NCBI GenBank assembly: GCA_021234155.1 | Contig: JAJEKV010000055.1 | Location: 1,221,090-1,285,089, forward strand | Direction of reading: 5' to 3' | DNA length: 64,000 bases | Source of the DNA: Isoetes taiwanensis | Taxonomy: Eukaryota; Streptophyta; Lycopodiopsida; Isoetales; Isoetaceae | Shown here: positions 1,441 to 63,312 of the stretch, in pieces | Numbering within the stretch: position 1 is the first letter of the stretch | Layout of the letters: each line of letters begins with the position of its first letter | Translations under genes and position numbers: made by a program | Notes under the pieces: model-generated | Database searches by the model: none | Seen by the model: the letters and a program-made list of their open reading frames with translations, nothing else | What the model was told of the DNA's origin: nothing

Positions 1441-1455
1441 AGGAAATACAGGCCA

Positions 1456-2628
1456 TCAGGTTACTTGCGTGGAACATCAATCATCTAAACAAGGGAAAGG
1501 TTGAGGAGATGGGAGATGTACTAGCATCAGTAGATATGGCATTTTTTGTAGAGACTTGGGAGCATGAAGAAAGCGGGCTTCCAGAAATACCAGGGTTCGT
1601 GGTTCTGCATTCAACATGGAATAGAAAAGGGTGGCGCAGGAGAGGATATGGGGGGATTGCGTGCTACGTAAGAACGGAAATAGTGCACCTTGTGAGGTTG
1701 GTCATAAAACGAGATACCAAGCAATTTATATGGGTGGAAATACCGGGAAAGGATGGCAGACGGGTCTTTATTGCAGGATGTTACTTTTTACCATTACAAA
1801 AGCACACATACCAAAGATATGGCTTAGATTTTGAGGATCCATTCCAGCAGCTAACGGAGTTAGGAGAGGTTGTTTTGATAGGAGATTTCAATGCGCGAAC
1901 CGCGGGGAAACAAGCATCATTAGCAAGCAGCAGTGGGGATCCTATCTGGATGAATCAAATGGATGAAGGTGAGTTAGAACTGGCAGGTTGGAATCGTATC
2001 ACATCGGATACAGATAAGTGGCCTACCGCAAATGGGGAACCATTTATTGGGAATGTGCAGTGGTCTAAACCTTGTGATTTACAATGGGGTTAAGCATTTT
2101 GCAAGCACGGATAAGTGCATCTGTAAAGGAAAGAGTATTGTGGATTACTTTATTGCATCTGAGCTATTTGCGGAGCAAGTGACATACTTGCATGTATCAG
2201 ACATTAGGAAAGAATCGGATCATGTCCCAATGATAGTACACATTGCTGCAACGGGGGAAATTAAGCAAGAGAAGGAAACTAGCAAGGGAGGTATACGGGT
2301 GAATCAGAAAAAGGCAGAGCAATATATGACATATTGCGAGCAACGGGTGGGAGGCACAGCATGGCCCCAGGGTGCTGCAAAGATAAGCGAGGTTTTGACC
2401 TCTTTGGTGCTAGAGGCAGCAAATACATGCTTTAGCTCAGGAAGGCGGGAAAAAGGTCTACCCTGCAATGGGTGGTTCGATGAAGAATGCAAACTTAAGA
2501 GGGAACAATATAAAGGTGCACAGGGGGGGTACAGAATGGAATTGATTAAAAGCACAAAAAGGCTGGTCGATATAAGAAAAGAGCATTCCTGCGACTTAAG
2601 CAAGAGGAGCTGGTTGCTAGCTTGGTGA
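1456..2628 (+). pseudogene. LINE A apurinic-type endonuclease domain and linker
   Basis: The domain would nick the target strand to prime reverse transcription. Motifs of the exonuclease-endonuclease-phosphatase fold appear in order: LLAWNINHLNKGK near 1460, FFVETW near 1540, GGIACYVR near 1650, LIGDFNAR near 1877 and SDHVPM near 2216. The first five lie in one frame up to 2093; the rest continues in another frame from about 2032, so a frameshift sits near 2040-2090. The linker before the RT contains WFDEECKLKREQYKGA near 2474, a motif repeated in the LINE at 40.7 kb. The fold is nearly complete but the frame is broken, so no product is expected. Confidence 0.85.
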
Positions 2629-3990
2629 TTGACCCTAACAAGTTTTGGAAAAAGATGAAAGAAGGGAGGCAACATGCGCAGCATTTGCAATTGGAGGATC
2701 TTGTGGCACAAGTCCAAAGTCTTTATCACATCAATGATATACCAGAAAACCAACAGAAAATCAGGACTCATTTCTCATTCACCATCAATGATGTATGTGA
2801 AGGTTTGAACAAACTGGCTAATGGAAAAGCGGCAGATACATTGGGCTTAGTGGCCGAAATGCTCAAATGGGCAGGAGGGGGAGTAGCAAGCAAAATAACA
2901 CAGATGTTCAATGATGCAACGCAAGAAGGTTTCCCCACAGAATGGCAAATCAATAGGGTTGTACCCATACATAAAGCTGGTAATGAGCGCGACCCGAATA
3001 ACTACCGCATGATTATGGTAAGCAATCTTTTTGCAAAGCTATTTGCCAATATTATTGAAAGCAAGATTAGTGTTTGGGCAGAGATGCATAATGTCCGAGC
3101 TAAGGGTCAAGCGTGCTTTAGGCCAAGAAAATGCACCACTGATCACCTAGTGACCTTCCGAGCTATGATAGACCGCAATAAAAAGGGACAAGAAAACCTA
3201 TGTTTGCAGGATTTGTAGATTTCACTAAAAGCGTTTGACATGGTTCATCTGGGAATTTGTGGGAAAGCTTGGAACAATGCGGTGCGCGAACAACTAAGAA
3301 ATGCAGTAAGGTTGATATATGAGAGGGTTATTGTAAAACTATCCTTCCCTTTTGATCATAATGATGTGCAAGTGGAGAGCAATTCTGGTGTCAAACAAGG
3401 ATGTCCTTTATCACCAACCTTGTTTGGAATTTTCATAGACGATTTAGAGGGTGGATAACCATGCAGGGGGGAGATGGGATAAGACTTGCAGGGCATGTCA
3501 TTCTCTTGCTGCTCTACGCGGACGACATTGTATTGCTATCACGCTTGATAAAGAGGGGATGCAGAAACACTTGGACACACTATCGACATTTTGTGATGCA
3601 ACAGTATGAAAGTCAATTTGGGAAAGACCAAATCAAATTGTGATATTCGAACTAACCCGGATCAGAACTATACATTTTCATATAAAGGGGAGTCGGTAGA
3701 GATTTCTAGCACCTACAAATATCTAGGGCTCATTGTAGACAAGCACTTTAGGTGGAATCAAACGGTGGGAGCAAGGGGTTAATGGAGGGTTGAAAGCGTT
3801 CTTTGCTATGCAAAAGAAATGCTTAAAAGCGAGATATCTCCGGAACTTTGAGCTAAAAAGATGTTGTTCAAAACACTAGTATGCATAAGATGTAGTGTTA
3901 TATGGATGTGAAGTCCGGGGGCCCTGACTCTCACTTGAGCTATGGCAAAAAATAGAGCGAGTGCAAAAGAAAAAGTTTCTACACACCGAG
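2622..3990 (+). pseudogene. LINE A reverse transcriptase
   Basis: Reverse transcriptase motifs follow in order: LANGKAADTLGLVAEMLKWA near 2812, VVPIHKAGN near 2959, NYRMIMVSNLFAKLF near 3000, GVKQGCPLSPTLFGIFID near 3388 and the catalytic YADD of LLLYADDIVLLS near 3510. The region changes frame near 3220, 3400-3460 and 3640 and contains stops after 3780, so it is inactive although the YADD box itself survives. The palm-to-thumb piece SSTYKYLGLIVD is readable near 3706 in a broken context. The same motif series is present in copies B, C and E. Confidence 0.9.
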
Positions 3991-4209
3991 CTTGGAGTTA
4001 AAATGCAACCTCGTATGACATGATGTTTGGTAGAATGCGGTATGATGCACCGGAATGTGAAGCTTTATGTCGCTTTCTAACATATTTAAGCGAGATGGGG
4101 GTTAGAGGAAGAAAGTTACCCGCCGCTAGCACTAAATGCGACAATGGATAAGGGATGGTATGCGATATATGAATATGGCTGCTAAAAATGGGGTCTTCAG
4201 ATTCAAGAC

Positions 4210-4743
4210 TTGGCACGCAATAAGAACCGAATCCATGACTGGGTAAGAGACACCGTTCAAGCAAGAATCTGGCACACACCTGGTATCAAAATGTTGCAGT
4301 ATAGGGAGAAGATGAATCCAACACTACAGGCAATGAGGTACTTGGGTGAGAACCTCTCCCTAGCAAAAAGGCATGCTATCTGCCGGATGAGGCTGAGTGC
4401 GCACCACTTAAGTGTAGAGGTCGGCAGGTGGTATAACATTCAGAGGGAATACCGAACGTGCCAGGCATGTGGGTCAGATGAAATAGAGGACGAGGAACAT
4501 GCAATTTTACTCTGTCCAGCGTATCAAGCCCTGCGGGATAGGTTTGGTTTTAGTATACTTAATTTACAACAATTCTTCGACATGCCAGCTACTATAGTAG
4601 GTAGTTTTTTAATTGATATGTTGGCCCTGAGGGAGGCAGCAATCAAGCATGTTGTAGAATCCAGCGGAGACGAGGAAGAAGAGAGCGATGGCGAGCAACT
4701 CGATGAGTACTTGCCAGATGATATGATATTTGGTTTTGGATAA
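4210..4743 (+). pseudogene. LINE A C-terminal domain with Cys/His knuckle
   Basis: This 177-codon open stretch is the C-terminal part of the LINE ORF2 protein. It has a knuckle of the form CxxC-x(n)-H-x4-C (CQACGS at about 4462, HAILLCPAY at about 4498), thought in LINEs to help bind template RNA, then an acidic tail (GDEEEESDGEQLDEY). Close relatives occur in copies B (5797-5860), C (9168-9230) and D (9727-9790). It is open here but is cut off from the RT by stops upstream. Confidence 0.8.
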
Positions 4744-4815
4744 GTTTTATGGTTGTACTCTGTCTTATAGACCTGATGGTCTGACAAGACGAAATAATAC
4801 AAATCACTTCACTTC

Positions 4816-5012
<197 letters not shown>

Positions 5013-5019
5013 ACCCCCC

Positions 5020-6131
5020 AGCGGTAGAAAGCAATATTGGCGTGAAACAGGGATGCCCGTTGTCCCCCACATTGTTTGGCCTGTTTATTGATAGCCTTGA
5101 AGCTTGGCTTAATACTAATTGCCCAGGAGGAATGGAATTACATGGATATATTGTTCAGTTACTCATGTATGCAGATGATGTGGTCATTTTTGCACGGTCA
5201 AAAGAGCACATGCAGGAACACTTAAACGGATTGGCTGATTTCTGTGACCACACTGGTATGCAGGTAAATTTGGATAAAACAAACATCATGGTCGTTGGGG
5301 CCCTTAGACAAGAGCCAATTTTCAGCTATAAGGGAAATTCTGTAACTATGTTTGCGACTCTTACAAATACTTGGGTCTTATTTTCAGCAGAAACCATAGG
5401 TGGAATGCATGTATTACACAACGAGTTGCTGGAGGGGAAAGAGCACTATATGCATTACAGAGCATGTGTCGAAGAATACATTTATGGTCCTGGACTCTTA
5501 AGGTGAAATTGTATCAATCCCTGGTGCAGAGTGTGCTTTTGTATGGGTGCGAAGTTTGGGGGCCAGGTCTTCCTCAATGTCTATGGGCTGATATGGAGCA
5601 AGTCTTGAAGAAGTTTTTAAGGCTAGAGCTAGGAGTCAAGACCCAAACACCATACCCAATGATGTTAGTAGAAAGCATTTACAGGCAAATATATCAATGC
5701 AGAAGAGACACAAGCAGGATCCGTCTTAGCTCACATCATTTGGGGGTGGAAACAGGTAGATGGGGACATATCATACCGAGAGATCAAAGGTATTGTAAGG
5801 TTTATAACACAAATCAGGTTGAAGACGAGGATCATACATTACTTCGATGTGTGGCATATGATACATTAAGGGTTAAATATGGAATAGACCATGTAGATCT
5901 CCCGACTCTCTTCACATATGATAGTGATATGCTGGGGAGTTATTTGATTGAACTTTTGCGACATAGAGATACATGTTTAGAATCACAATAGAATATTGAT
6001 GAGGGTGATTCAGATAACTGGAGTGAGAGTGATGAGCTAGATGAGGATATGGAAACTCATCTATTATTTTATGAAGATATTTAAACTGATTGTCTAATAG
6101 GCCTTTGAGGCCTCCCAATGGACATAATAAA
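5020..6131 (+). mobile_element. LINE copy B, 5'-truncated
   Basis: This copy begins inside the reverse transcriptase (GVKQGCPLSPTLFGLFID near 5040) and runs to a 3' UTR ending ...CATAATAAAC, where another CT/CCCT microsatellite starts. The catalytic box is MYADDVV near 5167 and the thumb strand GMQVNLDKTN near 5256. Beyond a frameshift near 5370-5500 the second part reads LYGCEVWGPG near 5537, then a Cys/His knuckle (DEDHTLLRCVAYDTLR near 5826). The terminal acidic segment is broken by a TAG at 5989. Truncation at the 5' end is normal for target-primed reverse transcription. Confidence 0.9.
5026..5991 (+). pseudogene. LINE B reverse transcriptase and C-terminal knuckle, frameshifted
   Basis: The first frame (to 5506) holds the second half of the RT palm with an intact YADD and the sequence HTGMQVNLDKTNIMVVGAL. 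The second frame (5371-5991) holds the thumb, the LLYGCEVWGPG motif, the ELGVKTQTPY motif and the knuckle. The overlap means one frameshift between them. The motifs match copies A, C and E, so this is the same broad LINE lineage, but the wording differs enough that B is not a recent duplicate of A. Confidence 0.85.
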
Positions 6132-55179: not shown

Positions 55180-56789
55180 TGTGACGTTCCAAGTATTTAT
55201 ACGGTATATGTATAAATACATTGACATGTCACCCAGTACAGATACGCCACCATGGGGTATGGTAACCTAGGGGGTTGACCTAAAAGGGATTTAATTAGCT
55301 ATGTTAATTAAACCATTAAGGATAATAACCTATGATTAAGGAAATTAATAATTAAGAAGGATAATTAAGCCAATTATGGTTAGGGAAGGCGGGCCAAACT
55401 CAATTGGCCAGCATGGTGACTACTATTTGGATTCAATTAGGTGGATCACCACCCCCGTATCAGCCAAAATTGAACCAGTTGAGCACCCAAGGAGCAGTTG
55501 AGCGCCCAAGCACTGTTGCTGACCTCACCAAAATCACTGAACAACCACTAGCTGTTGCTGCCGCCCTACCTACAGCATCATGGAAGCACCATGATAACGG
55601 TTCCAGCCGAAACACGGATTAGTAGTAGATTAGCTTGTGAATTGCAGGATAGTACTTCAGTACTCTCTTTGCTGATCGCTTTTGTTGAGATTAACCCTTC
55701 TCTGGTAAGTAGGATTACATTTCAATTATGAATGGTGCTCTGTTAAGGAATTGGTTGATGTATCTATGAAGTATTTCGGTAGCTTCCATTAAACAGGGGT
55801 TTAAAGGGGGGGTAGAGACCTCTGAGCTCATGTATGATAGTATGCTCCTAGATAGAGCCCTGTAATATTCCCATTAAATGCGGCCTGTGTGCAAGAGACT
55901 GCCGGGTCGTAGACGCTATGGTCTGGCTTAGCACCAGAAAAGGGACACAGTGGTGAAGTGGGGGTGGGGTCTTGCACGAACATAAAAGGCTCCTGAGACT
56001 CCTACAAATGGGCTAGGCCCGATAGTCGGGCCACGTAGAGGGCCGGTATGGATCTGACACTTCCTGGGTGTAGAGATGTGATCCGTATGGAGCATCTTGC
56101 ACTTTGAGTAGATTTAGGGTGAGTAAGTTGGGTACGGATGCGGGGGTCGCTGATGCGGCACGTATTCTCTAGCTCACCCATGGAACCACTGTGATCCTGG
56201 AAGGGGACGCTTCTCTGACCTGCCTCATCGGACCGGGGCGTCATGAACCCTGGAGTAGACTCAGAAAGGGTGATACCTTGAGTCTGCGTATCCGGAAGGC
56301 TATAGCGAAGCCATAGCGTGAATCGACCCATCTGCAAAGTGTGCACAGGAGGGGCGGATGGAGTGGACAACCCTAGCCGATGTTCTATGCCAACCAACGC
56401 CATGCCAAGACTCGGTCTGCTGATCTCTTGAGGCCCAGCCGTCAGTCGATCCTCACTGGAGTCTGAGCCAGGGTAGAACCTGAGGTTTGGGGTGTTTTCT
56501 TAGTTTAGATGCACATTCTTTGCCGTTGGTATTTGGATGGATGCGCCACCCTTCGTGGTGGATAATTATATATATATAATTTATGCTGTGTGCTAACCCT
56601 TGTATTCATGCTTCCGCGACGTAGGAGCCCATCGAAGGCGTGGGCCGAATGACACCTCCGTGCCCTTCACTCGAGCATCTCTACGTAGATGGACGGAGGG
56701 CCCTGCTCATGGCGAGATGGTCGCCATGGGAGGGGAAAGTCCCCGTATGTATACGGCCGGGGGTCGATATATATTCGAGGGAGCCACCA
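55180..56789 (+). repeat. 5' LTR of the H3-carrying element
   Basis: It begins TGTGACGTTCC, with a TATAAATA box at about 55211, and ends in GAGCCACCA shortly before the primer-binding site. Blocks such as AGGAGGGGCGGATGGAGTGG near 56347 match the LTR at 17393-19319 in inverse orientation. An AT-rich tract at 56565-56580 (ATATATATATA) lies near the 3' end. The 3' LTR is missing, so the ends are inferred. Confidence 0.75.
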
Positions 56790-56792
56790 CGA

Positions 56793-56810
56793 TGGTATCG
56801 AGTCAGAGCC
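56793..56810 (+). other. primer-binding site interrupted by four bases
   Basis: TGGTATC, then GAGT, then CAGAGCC: the initiator-tRNA site TGGTATCAGAGCC is split by a 4-base insertion. The bases after it (ATAGCACTGGCC) match those after the intact site in the minus-strand element (CGATCACTGGCC), confirming the identity. The insertion would weaken priming. Confidence 0.7.
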
Positions 56811-57574: not shown

Positions 57575-58081
57575 ATGGCCAACACTAAGAGTGCTCCGGA
57601 CCCCACTATAGCCCAGATCTACGCTTTGATCGCTCGGAATATGGCTACCGACCCTGCTTTGATTGACATACTCCTAGACGAGCTAGTAAACAGATTTGAG
57701 AACAATGATAGGATCCCCTATCCTATTTACCACTTCTCGGAGCCATTCTTGATCCGACTGAACCTCCGCCAGCTTCCTTACACCATGGCCGAGCAACCTG
57801 ACTTGGTCATGATGCTGATTAAGTTCTACCCTCCCGAATGTGAAGGACACACCGAGGAGGGGGACATAAGGGATGAGGCCGACCGCATCAGAAACTTGGC
57901 CAGGGAGGATGATCGCCGAGAGATAGAACGAGCCGATACGGCGGCTCGGGGTAGGGAATATCGGTACCTGGGGGATGGCGTTGCCGTTATAGATGGCAGG
58001 GCCATCGAGATTCCCCCATACCGATGGGATGAGGATTCCCGCAGCTTCATATGGGGGCAGATCCCCGAGCATCGGCATTGA
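57575..58081 (+). CDS. retrotransposon accessory ORF A, unknown function
   Basis: An intact 168-codon frame starting MANTKSAPDPTIAQIYALIA, preceded by a 770-bp C-rich leader. The first 90 residues look like a compact helical domain (DILLDELVNRFENNDRI, PFLIRLNLRQLPY); residues 95-130 are strongly charged (DEADRIRNLAREDDRREIER) and the end is Trp-containing (YRWDEDSRSFIWGQIPEHRH). No known family is recognised. It is the first gene of the element and is followed after 150 bp by the H3-like ORF. The intact frame in an otherwise damaged element is notable. No clear counterpart survives in the 13-25 kb element. Confidence 0.65.
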   Translation: MANTKSAPDPTIAQIYALIARNMATDPALIDILLDELVNRFENNDRIPYPIYHFSEPFLIRLNLRQLPYTMAEQPDLVMMLIKFYPPECEGHTEEGDIRDEADRIRNLAREDDRREIERADTAARGREYRYLGDGVAVIDGRAIEIPPYRWDEDSRSFIWGQIPEHRH

Positions 58082-58448
58082 TTATTTAATAACCATCCGT
58101 GATTGATATGAGTCACGCCCAACCGGTACCACGCTGAACTTCTTTTCACAAGCAACCAGTAGCACAACATTACGCCAAAGTTGAAGAAGACCTTAGGAGA
58201 GCCCGGAGTTCCTGGAAGGGGCGTGAGAGGATCCAACGGAGAAGGAGGAGAAGGCAAGAAGACCAAACAACCCACGGGGGGGGGGCATCCGAGGTGGGCC
58301 CAACCCCAACAAGAGCATACGAAAACACCGGAGGAAGGCCGCCGCCCAAGTCCGGGCAATAATACAAGGAAAGTTAAGGGACCGCCCTACGCTTTTGGCA
58401 AGAACGCTGAAGCCACCGAGGCGTGAGCGGGTGGATGCGCCCCACCCC
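58082..58448 (+). other. region between ORF A and the H3 fold, basic coding-like
   Basis: In one frame (58147-58330) it reads [20 protein letters not shown] then [10 protein letters not shown], a basic coiled stretch resembling the charged piece before the H3-like fold of the other element (16280-16570). Two other frames are also open and Pro/Gly-rich. It may be the original N-terminal extension of the H3-like protein, now out of frame. Confidence 0.4.
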
Positions 58449-58805
58449 ATGTTGGGGCCAAGATCGTACTCGCACAAAGGGGCCGCCCTAACCCTCGCCC
58501 ACGAGGAAACCCCATCGGTCTGGACCGGCACTGTCGCCTTACGGGAGATCCGTAAGTTTCAGAAGTCAACCCAACTTCTGATACGGAAGCTTCCCTTTCA
58601 GAGGTTGGTTCGGGAGATTGCCCAGGAGTTCAAGACCGACCTCCGCTTCCAGACTTTTGCCATTTTGGCACTCCAAGAGGCTGCGGAGGCCTATCTAGTG
58701 GCACTTTTTGGTGATGCCAATCTTTGCGCAATCCACGCAAAGAGGGTCACCATTATGCCTAAGGATTTAGCCCTCGCCCGCAGGATTCGGGGGGAGCATC
58801 CTTAG
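58449..58805 (+). CDS. histone H3-like protein encoded by the retrotransposon
   Basis: The frame from 58530 to the stop at 58803 gives [80 protein letters not shown] and [12 protein letters not shown]3 residues 45-135 without gap or stop, about 85% identical by eye to plant H3. Alpha-N, alpha-1, loop 1 (R83), alpha-2, loop 2 and alpha-3 are complete; K56, C110, H113, K115, T118 and K122 are kept. Changes include Y54F, E59Q, H/S87F, G102A, E105G, I124L, Q125A, R134H and A135P. L90 is as in plant H3.3, and there is no CENH3-type longer loop 1. The N-terminal tail is not H3-like: from ATG 58449 it is only 27 residues ([20 protein letters not shown] ...), lacking K4, K9 and K36. The frame is open back to 58227; counted from TTG 58395 the tail has exactly the H3 length (ART to TVA, 47 residues). 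It lies between accessory ORFs of the element on the same strand. Confidence 0.9.
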
Positions 58806-59004: not shown

Positions 59005-59583
59005 ATGGCAGCCACCGACCTTCTTGCATGGTATCAAGACGGAGAGCATTGGGATCCGCAAGTGCCCTTCGACCTGTTGCAGCCCTTGCTATGCCAGCGC
59101 CTAGACGTCATCACTAATATGCAGCGGCACCCAGATTATGCCGGGTTTTTAGACTTTTACATGGAGGAGATGCTTCCTTTGTGTATCCCTCTTGGGGATC
59201 CTCCCCAATTGTATCTAGAACGGGAGGTAGTCCGGGATATGTTAGGGGGCGACACCCATGCGTATGATGTGCTGAAAGGAAAGCTCAGATGGGGCAAACA
59301 CCTGCCCGTTGTGCAGCATCAGGGGCGACAATATCTTGAGGTTTCCTTCGCCCTAGCCATCCTCATGGATCAATACGTTGAGGATGAAACTTTGCCTGTA
59401 GAGAAAGGCAAACTCCCTGAATCTTCCGAGGAGGGAGAAGATGAGCATATAGGTATGGGCGACTCGTTGGAAGCAGTTAGCAGAGGAGATGCCACCACGC
59501 CGGGAACAAGCTGCACGCTTGTCAGGGCTGGACGCCCTTCCAGTTGTGTATCACCAAGGGCAAGAATATCTTCTCTTGGATGA
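59005..59583 (+). CDS. retrotransposon accessory ORF C (N-terminal part of the QEYLLL ORF)
   Basis: It starts MAATDLLAWYQDGEHWDPQV and has a helical N-terminal domain, then LPVVQHQGRQYLEVSFALAI near 59305, which is echoed in ORF D (LPVVYHQGQEYLLLDDIIWT), so the pair looks like an internal duplication of one module. An acidic hinge (ESSEEGEDEHIGMGD) follows. The last 35 codons overlap ORF D in another frame and look spurious, so C and D were probably one protein now split by a frameshift near 59490. The start resembles MATRSFITWYSAS of the 13-15 kb element. Function unknown. Confidence 0.65.
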   Translation: MAATDLLAWYQDGEHWDPQVPFDLLQPLLCQRLDVITNMQRHPDYAGFLDFYMEEMLPLCIPLGDPPQLYLEREVVRDMLGGDTHAYDVLKGKLRWGKHLPVVQHQGRQYLEVSFALAILMDQYVEDETLPVEKGKLPESSEEGEDEHIGMGDSLEAVSRGDATTPGTSCTLVRAGRPSSCVSPRARISSLG

Positions 59584-60400
59584 TATCATCTGGACCTATC
59601 ACATGGTGGCCGGGTTTAAGCGCCGGCGTAAGGACCATGTGCTCTATGAGCTAGCGGAGTACTGTTTGGATGATTTCATCGACTTCGCTCCTATTGAGCT
59701 TCCCCCGGAGGTGCAGCAGTTACTCCAGTTCCGACAGGACACCATAGAGCCAGCTGAGACTTTGCTACGGCTTCGGGAACTGGTGATGCAGGATCCGGCC
59801 TCTCAGCCCTCACCGGATGCCTTTACAGCTATGGGATCTCATGTTCCCAACATTAATATGGTTGAGGTTCCCTCCGATTCGGATGAGGAAGGAGAGGATC
59901 TATACCATAATCCTGCTCATCTGAAGGAAGAGCAGCAAGAACTCAAGGAAGAAGAAGTCCCTATGGACTTAGACAAGGAGGTGGCCACGTCAGAGACCCC
60001 GCAAGGGAAGGTATTGGGAAACCACCTTACCCGCTTTTTCTTATCAGCTTTTCGCCAGGGGCAAGTTCTTTTTATAGGCCGAGATTTAGGGCCGGAGGCT
60101 GAAGCTTCATGGTGGACCCTCCGTGCTCTCTCCACATTGGCCGGGCACAAGAAGCTTCCCTATCGTACGTTCACTTATGTACTCGTACGACGAGATCTTG
60201 CCCTGACGGCCTTGGGGCAAGACATTGCACCCTGGATGAGCATGAAGCTCCTTACGGCAGCCCCATTGGCTGTTGCTTATCCGCCAGAGGTTGCTTCCAT
60301 TGCGGCTGCCACAGTAGACCCAGGGGTGACTCTGCTACGACACCGACCGCCGCCACCACCTCCTCGGTCTACGAATGAAGAGGGAGGACCTAGCTCTTAA
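59489..60400 (+). CDS. retrotransposon accessory ORF D (C-terminal part of the QEYLLL ORF)
   Basis: An intact 303-codon frame. Regions in order: module repeat (LPVVYHQGQEYLLLDDI), a segment with CLDDFIDFAPIELPPEVQQL, an acidic hinge (VPSDSDEEGEDLYHNPAHLK, EEQQELKEEEVPMDLDKE), a globular C-terminal domain from about residue 185 (FRQGQVLFIGRDLGPEAEAS, then FTYVLVRRDLALTAL) and a Pro-rich end (HRPPPPPPRS). The same order is seen in the minus-strand element at 13538-14472 with clear but distant similarity, meaning the two elements diverged long ago while retaining this gene. I recognise no known domain; a structural or nucleic-acid-binding role in the particle is one possibility. Confidence 0.7.
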   Translation: MPPRREQAARLSGLDALPVVYHQGQEYLLLDDIIWTYHMVAGFKRRRKDHVLYELAEYCLDDFIDFAPIELPPEVQQLLQFRQDTIEPAETLLRLRELVMQDPASQPSPDAFTAMGSHVPNINMVEVPSDSDEEGEDLYHNPAHLKEEQQELKEEEVPMDLDKEVATSETPQGKVLGNHLTRFFLSAFRQGQVLFIGRDLGPEAEASWWTLRALSTLAGHKKLPYRTFTYVLVRRDLALTALGQDIAPWMSMKLLTAAPLAVAYPPEVASIAAATVDPGVTLLRHRPPPPPPRSTNEEGGPSS

Positions 60401-60593
60401 ATAATTGTATTACGCATTTTGTATTGCGTATAGATGTAGGATTTTGGTTTGGCAATTTCTAGCCATTCTATGGTTATGATATACCATCTTTTTATCAATT
60501 GTGACTATTGTCTCAATGAATACAATTAAGATTGTTCTCTTCCATGATGTGTTCTTCTATCTGTTAGAGTTTAGGGCATAACGAAATTGTTCA

Positions 60594-61120
60594 ATGTTCT
60601 ATATTCATTTTTATTGTCTTACAAAAGAAACACTCGAAGAATATGAGGAGAGGATTACCGATCTGATAAGGAGAGATGATCCAGGGCCGCCAGAACAGGA
60701 TTATGGCCAAAGATATGGGGAGTACCCGGAATGGGACGAAGGTTATGAGATAGAACCTGCCACCACGGGGGAGTCCTATGATCCAGCCAAGGGATGGAGA
60801 TAGTTAGCATTCTCGTGGAACGAGCCTACGAGGACCTGAAGCAAACGCCACCCACATGGGACTATTGGGATATGTCCAGGCACGAAGCTTTCGAGGATGC
60901 CAACGACCACCTGTGGCAAATCTTCTATGCTTTAGGGAGGCTTTTCAATCTCCTTATTATTAGCCCAACTGGATTACCAACTTTGTTATCGTTCGGGCCC
61001 GGCACGCGTTACAAGCTCGTTAGGGTCATGCACGAAAAGTGTTCGCTACTCAATCCTCTACCCATTTGCGAACCCCTAGGGCCGGTCTCTTTAGTTTGGT
61101 TTTGTTTATGCTATATGTGA
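60594..61120 (+). CDS. small acidic ORFs between accessory ORF D and gag
   Basis: The first frame (to 60803) reads ETLEEYEERITDLIRRDDPG and YGEYPEWDEGYEIEPATTGE and overlaps a second (60794-61120) starting near VERAYEDLKQTPPTWDYWDM and continuing EAFEDANDHLWQIFYALGRL. The two may once have been one frame. They are acidic and Tyr/Trp-rich, unlike gag, and I recognise no family. The last 40 residues of the second frame look like noncoding sequence. Confidence 0.4.
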
Positions 61121-61339: not shown

Positions 61340-62111
61340 GTATGCTCGATATAGACGGTGCACGCAACGCCGCCTGGCAGACGCCCTCGAATGCCAGTAG
61401 GCTAACACCTGAACAGGAACTGATGTTAATGAAAAGACAATTAGGCGAGTTACAGGCTTATGTGTTGCATTCCAACCCACCATAGCATACACCAGAAAAC
61501 GGACCGGAGTTACCTTTGCAACCGCCAAGTCCGCTGCCGACAAAGCCATCTCCACTGAAACCCACCGCACCTGCACAAAGGAGGTCCCGTTCTAAACGTC
61601 GTCGCAGTTCCTCTAGAGATAGCGCCACCTCCTCACAATCAGCCATTCAGATCTTCCGAAGTCAGTCCGTATCACCGGGTGACCATGCAAAGCCGATAAG
61701 GAATACCGCAAGATTCGCTGATACAAACCATAACTAGTATATGGAAGAATAGGAACCGCCCGGTTTGATGGGAAATCTAGAGGCGGACTGAATGCAGAGT
61801 CCTGGTTGGACGAAATGAAGGAGTTTGGGAAGTCCTATGGCATGACAGAAAAGGATACAGGAAAGGTTGCTACCACAAACCTTACAGGAGCTGCCCGTAT
61901 TTGGTGGAAGGGCTATGCTAGAGCCAAGCATCTGGATAGAAGTAGGTGCAAGTTAAAAAAGTTTGCAAAAGCTTTTAAGTCGCATTATGTGCCTCGTGCG
62001 CACAAATGCCAACAAATTCAGACCTTCTACAGGTTAGAGCAGAAGGGTATGTCAGTCCAGGCCTACACTGATGAATTTATGCTTTGGTCAGTATGTACCA
62101 GGTATGAATGA
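61340..62111 (+). pseudogene. retrotransposon gag, N-terminal and capsid-like part
   Basis: Gag forms the particle that packages element RNA. From MLDIDGARNAAWQTP the frame shows LTPEQELMLMKRQLGEL, a TAG at 61483, then a Pro/Ser/Arg-rich spacer (QRRSRSKRRRSSSRD), a break near 61735, and the capsid core of the retrotransposon gag family: IGTARFDGKSRGGLNAESWL, then AARIWWKGYARAKH and FYRLEQKGMSVQAYTDEF. A frameshift near 62090 leads into the next ORF. One stop and at least two frame changes make this copy defective. Confidence 0.8.
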
Positions 62112-63312
62112 AAAGAGGGCAGTGGAAGGCTACATTGAGGGGTTGGCCCCATCAATTAAACGAATGGTTAAGGCCATAGACCCGAAATCAGTTGCGGAGG
62201 CTGAGGCTAAGGCATTGAGCCTCGAGGAGGACACACCAAGGAACCAGTATCCGCGTCCTGACCCTTACTCGCAGCCACGGCCGTCCACACCTTACAAACC
62301 CCGCTCGCCAAGTCCGGGGCCCTCTCAGCAGAACTCTTATGGCCGCCAGGAAAAGAAAGTCACCTTTAGCACGACCGATAAACAGAACAATGTCAGTAAG
62401 GAAGTTCGGAACCTCTTACAGTCTATTCCTAAAGAGGCCCGAGAACAGCTCCGCCGAGATAAGGCATGCTACAGGTGTATGCGGCCCGGACACTTCATGC
62501 AGAATTGTCCTTATGTCACGCAGACTGCCCAGCTGGCCATGGCCGACCTCGATTGGGACGATCTTGAGTCAACACAACCTGTCGAGGAGGAGGCTCCCGA
62601 GTACATTCACGGTGCGTCTCATATCCTTGCAGCTATAGAAACCGGCAATGCTGAAAGTCAGCCTGCTGTCATTTCCACCATAGGTCAAGTAGACAGTAAG
62701 CCTTTTATAATTCTTATGGATAGGGGAAGCACACATAATTTTGCTTCTCCTAGAATGGCCCAAGTCTTACAGCTTGAAACATTGAGGTCCCGATCGAGGC
62801 CTGTCACACTAGCCAGTGGTAAAGTCAGACATACTCATGGCCGTCGCATCAATCTCAAGATGCAACTGCCAGGTGCACCAGTTGCTTTGGGTGCCGAGTT
62901 GATGGATATTGGCAAATACGACCTTATTATCGGTATGGAATTCTTGGCATCTGCAAAGGCCAACATAGACTGCGAGAAACGGGAAGTTACCTTCAACGCA
63001 GCTAATGGAGCCCGCGTAACTATAAAAGGTGAACCATTCAACCCTATTATGCAGTCTATGTCCATCAGGCAGTTAGATAAAGCTATACGCAAGGAAAAGC
63101 TCCTTTGCGTCATTAGACTTGCCTCCATTGAGTCAGATGCTAAGCAGAAGCAAGTAATCGACACCCTGCCAGAGGGGATTGCTAATCTTCTCCGAGAATT
63201 TGGTGATCTTTTTCCGGATGAGATCCAGAAGCTTCCTCCTTTTAGAGGGGTAGAATGTGAGATATCTTTAGAGCCTGATTTCGCCTCCTCTATATGTTCA
63301 TCTGGTCACTAA
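62071..63312 (+). pseudogene. retrotransposon gag end, CCHC knuckle, aspartic protease, start of the RT linker
   Basis: The 413-codon frame continues gag (NEKRAVEGYIEGLAPSIKRM), then a Pro-rich region, a nucleocapsid knuckle CYRCMRPGHFMQNC (CX2CX4HX4C, near 62468), and a retroviral-type protease near 62594-63030 with GKYDLIIGMEFLASAKANID. The active-site loop reads LMDRGSTHNFASP: Thr/Ser of the Asp-Thr-Gly triad is replaced by Arg, whereas the relative at 13290 has DTGS, so cleavage is probably abolished. It ends in the linker to the RT (REFGDLFPDEIQKLPPFRGV) and stops 20 residues later. RT and everything after are missing. Confidence 0.88.

Follow-up and report, generated by a model that had tools for sequence, protein, structure and literature searches.

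Core histones have already been described in DNA viruses (PMC9145170), and DNA transposons can carry them as cargo (PMC6710886). In Pseudocercospora, the H3 copies captured by hAT elements are described there as mostly truncated and inactivated by RIP (PMC6710886). LTR elements with captured genes are known as well, and there is a strong case that the resident histone H3 described below is the first of its sort. The accessible portions of the open literature, which mostly excludes subscription papers and preprints, yielded no retroelement with a resident, selected histone gene. The main text of a review of viral histones contains neither "retrotransposon" nor "retrovir" (PMC9145170), and the word "Histone" has no occurrence in the main text of the Isoetes taiwanensis (PMC8566536) and I. 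sinensis genome papers.

Plant chromoviruses, including those of lycophytes, share with the present element the gag-PR-RT-RH-INT-chromodomain order and 5-bp target duplications (PMC3350952, PMC2864245). No histone gene is named in the available text of these two papers, whereas the element found here carries, before gag, an ORF1 with an H3 fold, an orphan ORF2 and an ORF3.

The window, i.e. the whole stretch of I. taiwanensis DNA analyzed, has a length of 64,000 nucleotides. An earlier note on this DNA had proposed that an H3-like gene resides in a Ty3/Gypsy element. This proposal is supported, since none of the results named there as refuting it arose in the tests run, and two features can be added: an orphan N-terminal part precedes the H3 in a fusion protein, and the integrase bears a chromodomain. 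It is probable that a chromodomain-bearing Ty3/Gypsy family has a histone H3 variant of its own, encoded by an accessory gene that is a permanent part of its 5′ region. The features distinguished within the window copy are as follows.

55180..56790 (end approximate), + strand: 5′ LTR, starting with TGTGACG; 88-92% to the 3′ LTRs of two other copies over 55180-56784 (BLAST)
56793..56810, + strand: degenerate primer-binding site, TGGTATC...AGAGCC, compared with TGGTATCAGAGCC of two full-length copies
57575..58081, + strand: N-terminal orphan part of ORF1 (ORF list; tblastn with L030 ORF1 begins at 57575; without Pfam match)
58082..58526, + strand: linker region of ORF1, frame-broken in the window copy (ORF list; tblastn with L030 ORF1)
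58527..58805, + strand: C-terminal H3 fold of ORF1 (92 aa) with stop codon (Pfam Histone; PDB H3.3; identity to host H3)
59005..60400, + strand: ORF2, orphan accessory gene, frame-broken near 59464 (tblastn with L030 ORF2, 92% and 96%; without Pfam match)
60582..61120, + strand: ORF3 region, orphan, two overlapping frames (ORF list; related open frame in L041 6384-6881; without Pfam match)
61734..62635, + strand: gag (capsid and zinc knuckle), frame-broken (Retrotrans_gag 4.7e-10, Ty3_capsid 1.6e-7, weak zinc-knuckle matches)
62635..63006, + strand: aspartic protease (RVP_2 3.3e-13)
63275..63276, no strand: end of homology to other copies (BLAST to L039 and L041 stops at 63275; the remaining pol and 3′ LTR are absent from the window)

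The open reading frame at 58227-58805 (+ strand, 192 aa) matches the Pfam Histone family with an E value of 1.3e-37 over its residues 100-188, and its best relative among solved structures is H3.3 (chain 7ux9_E, E 3.2e-47). The fold itself, GTVALREIR...RIRGEHP, was found to be intact and stop-free, as the earlier note had stated, with 92 residues (58527-58802, + strand) in place of the 91 counted there. Its identity to plant H3, estimated by eye at about 85%, was computed as 87% to each of eight H3 proteins of the same genome (L001-L008), a likeness that is not due to chance. Characteristic residues of these host proteins are E77, L90 and either S or T at position 87.

Oriented in the sense direction, the fold is preceded by an LTR (55180 to about 56790) and the degenerate primer-binding site and followed by gag-protease (61734-63309, Pfam), which agrees with the first description of the locus. 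The gene start formerly placed at 58449 had to be abandoned: this is no gene boundary. Elsewhere in the family the fold forms the C-terminal end of ORF1, and the ORF1 of the window begins at 57575. The N-terminal part of the window ORF1 is open up to a stop codon at 58079-58081, and the frame is interrupted between 58081 and 58527. The window copy is cut at 63275, because homology to two full-length copies stops there; owing to this cut, a search for an LTR pair within the window found none. LINE-like remains, with Exo_endo_phos (1e-8) and RVT_1 (3.3e-18) matches in separate frames, occupy window positions 1443-5991.

Two full-length copies of the element, each read as two pieces, were examined: C923 (L041/L042; ~13.2 kb, target duplication GCTGT) and C1081 (L039/L040; ~14.5 kb, target duplication TCTTC). 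Their LTRs, ~1.6 kb each, start with TGTGACG and end with CGTCACA, with K2P distances of 0.038 and 0.040 in the two copies, and their primer-binding site is TGGTATCAGAGCC, which we take to match the initiator methionine tRNA. The Ty3/Gypsy hallmarks, i.e. LTRs of the TG...CA type, a primer-binding site and matching 5-bp target duplications, are present in both (2/2). The open frames of L041 and L042 encode gag, protease, RT, RNase H and integrase in Ty3/Gypsy order (Pfam), and the integrase ends in a chromodomain (PF00385, 4.1e-8; L042 1375-1923), a chromovirus feature. Among the 120 protein matches listed for the RNase H-integrase region, identity does not exceed 51%; the best of those with names come from Closterium, Adiantum and eukprot PITA entries (presumably pine), and flowering plants and fungi score lower.

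In other copies ORF1, located between the 5′ LTR and gag, encodes a protein of ~420 aa composed of an orphan N-terminal part (~290 aa), a basic linker (20 K/R versus 3 D/E in 78 residues) and the C-terminal H3 fold. In copy L030 it forms a single open frame (832-2091; 420 aa stop to stop, 419 from the ATG) that starts with MANTKS and has its stop directly after RIRGEHP. An uninterrupted frame from MAN to the H3 C-terminus is present in eight distinct copies (L010, L012, L026, L028, L029, L030, L047 and L050), which were drawn from loci fetched by similarity and provide no rate of intactness. The canonical H3 N-terminal tail, ARTKQTARKSTGG, is absent from ORF1, and the linker and orphan part stand in its place. 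A linker motif, ARKS or similar, resembles the surroundings of K9 and K27 of H3.

Among 4157 candidate proteins drawn from 5.8 billion, none matched ORF1 residues 1-290 with E <= 1e-3, and Pfam gave no match for the ORF1 N-terminus, ORF2 or ORF3. Homology between the ORF1 N-terminus and ORF2 was also looked for, with no significant match (best E 0.91). The whole-ORF1 protein search returned 5327 matches; among the 120 listed, the names are mostly those of histone H3 proteins and the best local alignments cover 23-46% of the query. Single-sequence structure prediction for the 169-aa N-terminal part of the window ORF1 reached a pLDDT of only 50.

The searches for related copies covered the I. 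taiwanensis assembly (1,658,258,908 bases, 1110 contigs). First-look candidates numbered 8705 (Histone family), 8763 (window ORF), 4243 (ORF1 residues 1-250) and 6435 (ORF2), which are loose counts and not copy numbers, the best 120-150 of each having been scored. The family to which the H3-bearing element belongs is very large, as first-look candidates run into the thousands in this 1.66-Gb genome. Among the best 150 of 8705 scored in the Histone-family search, 15 match profile positions 2-122 like canonical H3, and most of the remaining matches begin near profile position 20. Transposon copies can inflate histone gene counts in such genomes.

An H3 match was located downstream in 40/40 copies picked by the ORF1 N-terminal part and upstream in 20/20 copies picked by ORF2. 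The 40 were hand-picked across the ranks of ~150 scored (the best of 4243 candidates) and the 20 from the best 120 of 6435 (by eye, ones not in the other lists); all 60 are anchored on the ORF1 N-terminus or ORF2, by similarity to one reference copy, and not on pol. Some of the matches are partial, frame-broken or weak (e.g. L060, L069, L083 and L092 among the 40, and L097, L101, L107 and L108 among the 20). Copies without H3, the first refuting outcome foreseen in the earlier note, were encountered in neither group (0/40 and 0/20), and with 60/60 hand-picked copies carrying it, the H3 of ORF1 is present in most copies, as for a family-wide additional ORF. It can stay close while the N-terminal part diverges: L086 shares with L030 96% identity in H3 and 71% in the N-terminal part.

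Comparison of six element folds with the eight host H3 genes revealed 84-87% protein identity without gaps and 67-71% nucleotide identity, far from the nearly identical host gene that would have marked a recent insertion. Synonymous sites differ at 86-104% (uncorrected; saturated) and nonsynonymous sites at 11-12%. Because of this saturation the capture looks old on sequence grounds, although saturation is a weak clock, since even between two host H3 genes, the one pair compared, 65% of synonymous sites are different. A single recent chance insertion is ruled out by the saturated sites together with the H3 match in 60/60 sampled copies. Nearly all copies depart from host H3 at ten positions (54F, 86T, 87F, 89I, 102A, 105G, 107A, 124L, 125A and 135P), which fits one capture; positions 59 and 134 also differ from the host, yet vary among copies. 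E77 occurs in host H3 and in 31/47 element copies (Q in 12/47), and D77 in 15/15 other H3-like proteins aligned; against this comparison set of 14 proteins from flowering plants and one from Closterium, the shared E77 hints at a capture within the host's lineage. Fourfold-site distances of the N-terminal part and H3 are correlated (r 0.66, 0/999 permutations as high, 32 copies), and therefore both parts travel together. Gene conversion by host H3 is countered by this correlation and by the ten element-specific substitutions. CENH3 has a diverged fold with an altered loop 1, and a CENH3 origin was ruled out on the basis of the best structure (H3.3) and the gapless 84-87% identity to host H3.

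Selection was assessed by counting substitutions per column against the majority codon, binned by the number of copies carrying each. The relaxed H3 set comprised the 49/52 copies (L043-L094) having at least 50 codons, the N-terminal set 52/52, and the ORF2 set 23/29 copies (L010-L038), originally fetched for H3 similarity. For changes found in at least four copies, the per-site nonsynonymous to synonymous ratio was 0.03 in H3 (85 synonymous, 9 nonsynonymous), 0.17 in the N-terminal part (285 and 175) and 0.06 in ORF2 (131 and 30), while single-copy changes gave 1.23 (37 synonymous, 142 nonsynonymous), 0.92 and 0.85, respectively. The difference between shared and single-copy changes in H3 is significant (Fisher p 2e-30), and, for shared changes, H3 is under tighter constraint than the N-terminal part (Fisher p 1.5e-8). 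A dN/dS near 1, which the earlier note would have read as an argument against function, is not what the shared H3 changes display. The pattern is the usual one for dead copies descending from lineages held under selection, and it shows purifying selection in the lineages behind the copies. ORF2 (window 59005-60400; L030 2296-3591), an orphan without Pfam match, appears from its shared ratio as a second conserved gene.

Changes present in two or three copies gave a ratio of 0.76 in H3 (29 synonymous, 69 nonsynonymous; relaxed set), with lower values in the N-terminal part (0.32) and ORF2 (0.12). Like the many frame-broken copies, this H3 value counts against the reading of a resident, selected H3; the value may come from misalignment across broken frames. 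In a stricter set (32/52; 20 dropped for short matches) the ratios were 0.03 for shared and 0.51 for single-copy changes in H3, and 0.17 and 0.60 in the N-terminal part. Pairwise H3 dN/dS was 0.36 for the one pair with the smallest distance and 0.04 in the largest bin (131 pairs), the bins shown holding 241 of 496 pairs.

Among the kept residues of the element H3 are H113 (69/69), K115 (69/69), R116 (67/69), D123 (67/68), L126 (67/68), R83 (62/67) and R63 (55/64), and at every interface or contact position checked the majority residue is that of the host (50-69 copies having the position). We take these positions to serve H3-H3 pairing (tetramer) and DNA contact in canonical H3, and their retention supports, without proving, pairing with H4 and nucleosome entry. 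Positions 86-89 and 105/125 are altered in nearly all copies; these presumably fall within or close to the parts of H3 that histone chaperones recognize, so that deposition may follow another route than for canonical H3.

We propose that the ORF1 protein would pair with host H4 and join nucleosomes on element or host chromatin, where these nucleosomes would display the orphan N-terminal part in place of a modifiable tail and could withstand or weaken by dilution any silencing of the element that acts through H3 tails. Taken alone, countering such silencing is tentatively the likeliest use of ORF1. We would rank this use first, an integration tether a close second and packaging third.

As a tether, the ORF1 protein would be seated in host nucleosomes, and the integrase, e.g. 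through its chromodomain, would bind either the N-terminal part or the ARKS-like linker of this protein, guiding insertions to chromatin that the element has already marked; we consider this possible though doubtful. The chromodomain lacks, by eye, the first and third cage aromatics, as do those of group II (defined in PMC6317226). The binding partner of plant group II chromodomains is given as not known in the available text (PMC6317226, PMC3350952), and for this integrase it could be the element's own H3 variant. The linker motif reads ARKS in 44/73 readable loci (two copies counted twice; e.g. L010, L027 and L085), but the other 29/73 read ARKT, AHKS, AHKA and similar, and within a basic linker ARKS may be a chance resemblance. 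Both uses might also be joined in a closed loop, which we regard as rather unlikely: the element H3, with its own domain as a tail and with host H4, would set an element-specific chromatin, and the element's own integrase chromodomain would read this mark, so that silencing is evaded and integration self-targeted.

In a packaging role, which is unlikely, the ORF1 protein would compact the cDNA of the element inside the particle or the pre-integration complex, with or without H4. The basic linker, the kept DNA-contact residues and the position of ORF1 upstream of gag would suit such packaging, but the kept H3-H3 interface and the changes at 86-89 and 105/125 suit nucleosomal or chaperone use at least equally, and no separate H4 gene was seen among the ORFs of the two full-length copies. 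A useless passenger, picked up by chance and multiplied along with the element as reported for the hAT-captured fungal H3 (PMC6710886), would agree with the many frame-broken copies and has that precedent, but is highly improbable and was rejected on the shared-change ratios (0.03 versus near 1 for single-copy changes), the more so as protein identity is 84-87% although synonymous sites are saturated.

With an H3 apparently retained by selection, this retrotransposon family would be a genomic parasite that brings along a piece of chromatin of its own. If the ORF1 protein enters nucleosomes, a selfish element owns a histone variant, which would give it a new route for evading silencing through H3 tails or for marking chromatin. 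The variant would then also be a tail-swapped H3 occurring in nature, and plant group II chromodomains would have in it a candidate partner.

Described systems share single aspects of this arrangement, as far as their available texts extend. The fungal hAT elements likewise amplify an H3 sequence, but they are DNA transposons and their H3 is not described as a fused, selected element gene (PMC6710886). Large DNA viruses are also genomic parasites that encode histones, in their case as doublets or multiplets of diverged folds (PMC9145170). The bracovirus histone CpBV-H4, likewise of mobile or viral origin, has an N-terminal tail of its own and becomes part of host nucleosomes, but it is an H4 of a polydnavirus acting on an insect host (PMC5423620). 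An orchid Ty3/Gypsy lineage has kept a host-type gene as an extra ORF that may act on host epigenetic control, this gene being an RNA demethylase with an AlkB domain and not a histone (PMC12786077). CENH3 combines an H3 fold with a non-canonical N-terminus, as ORF1 does, whereas the fold of the element is H3.1/H3.3-like, aligns without gaps to host H3 at 84-87% identity and is encoded by a retroelement.
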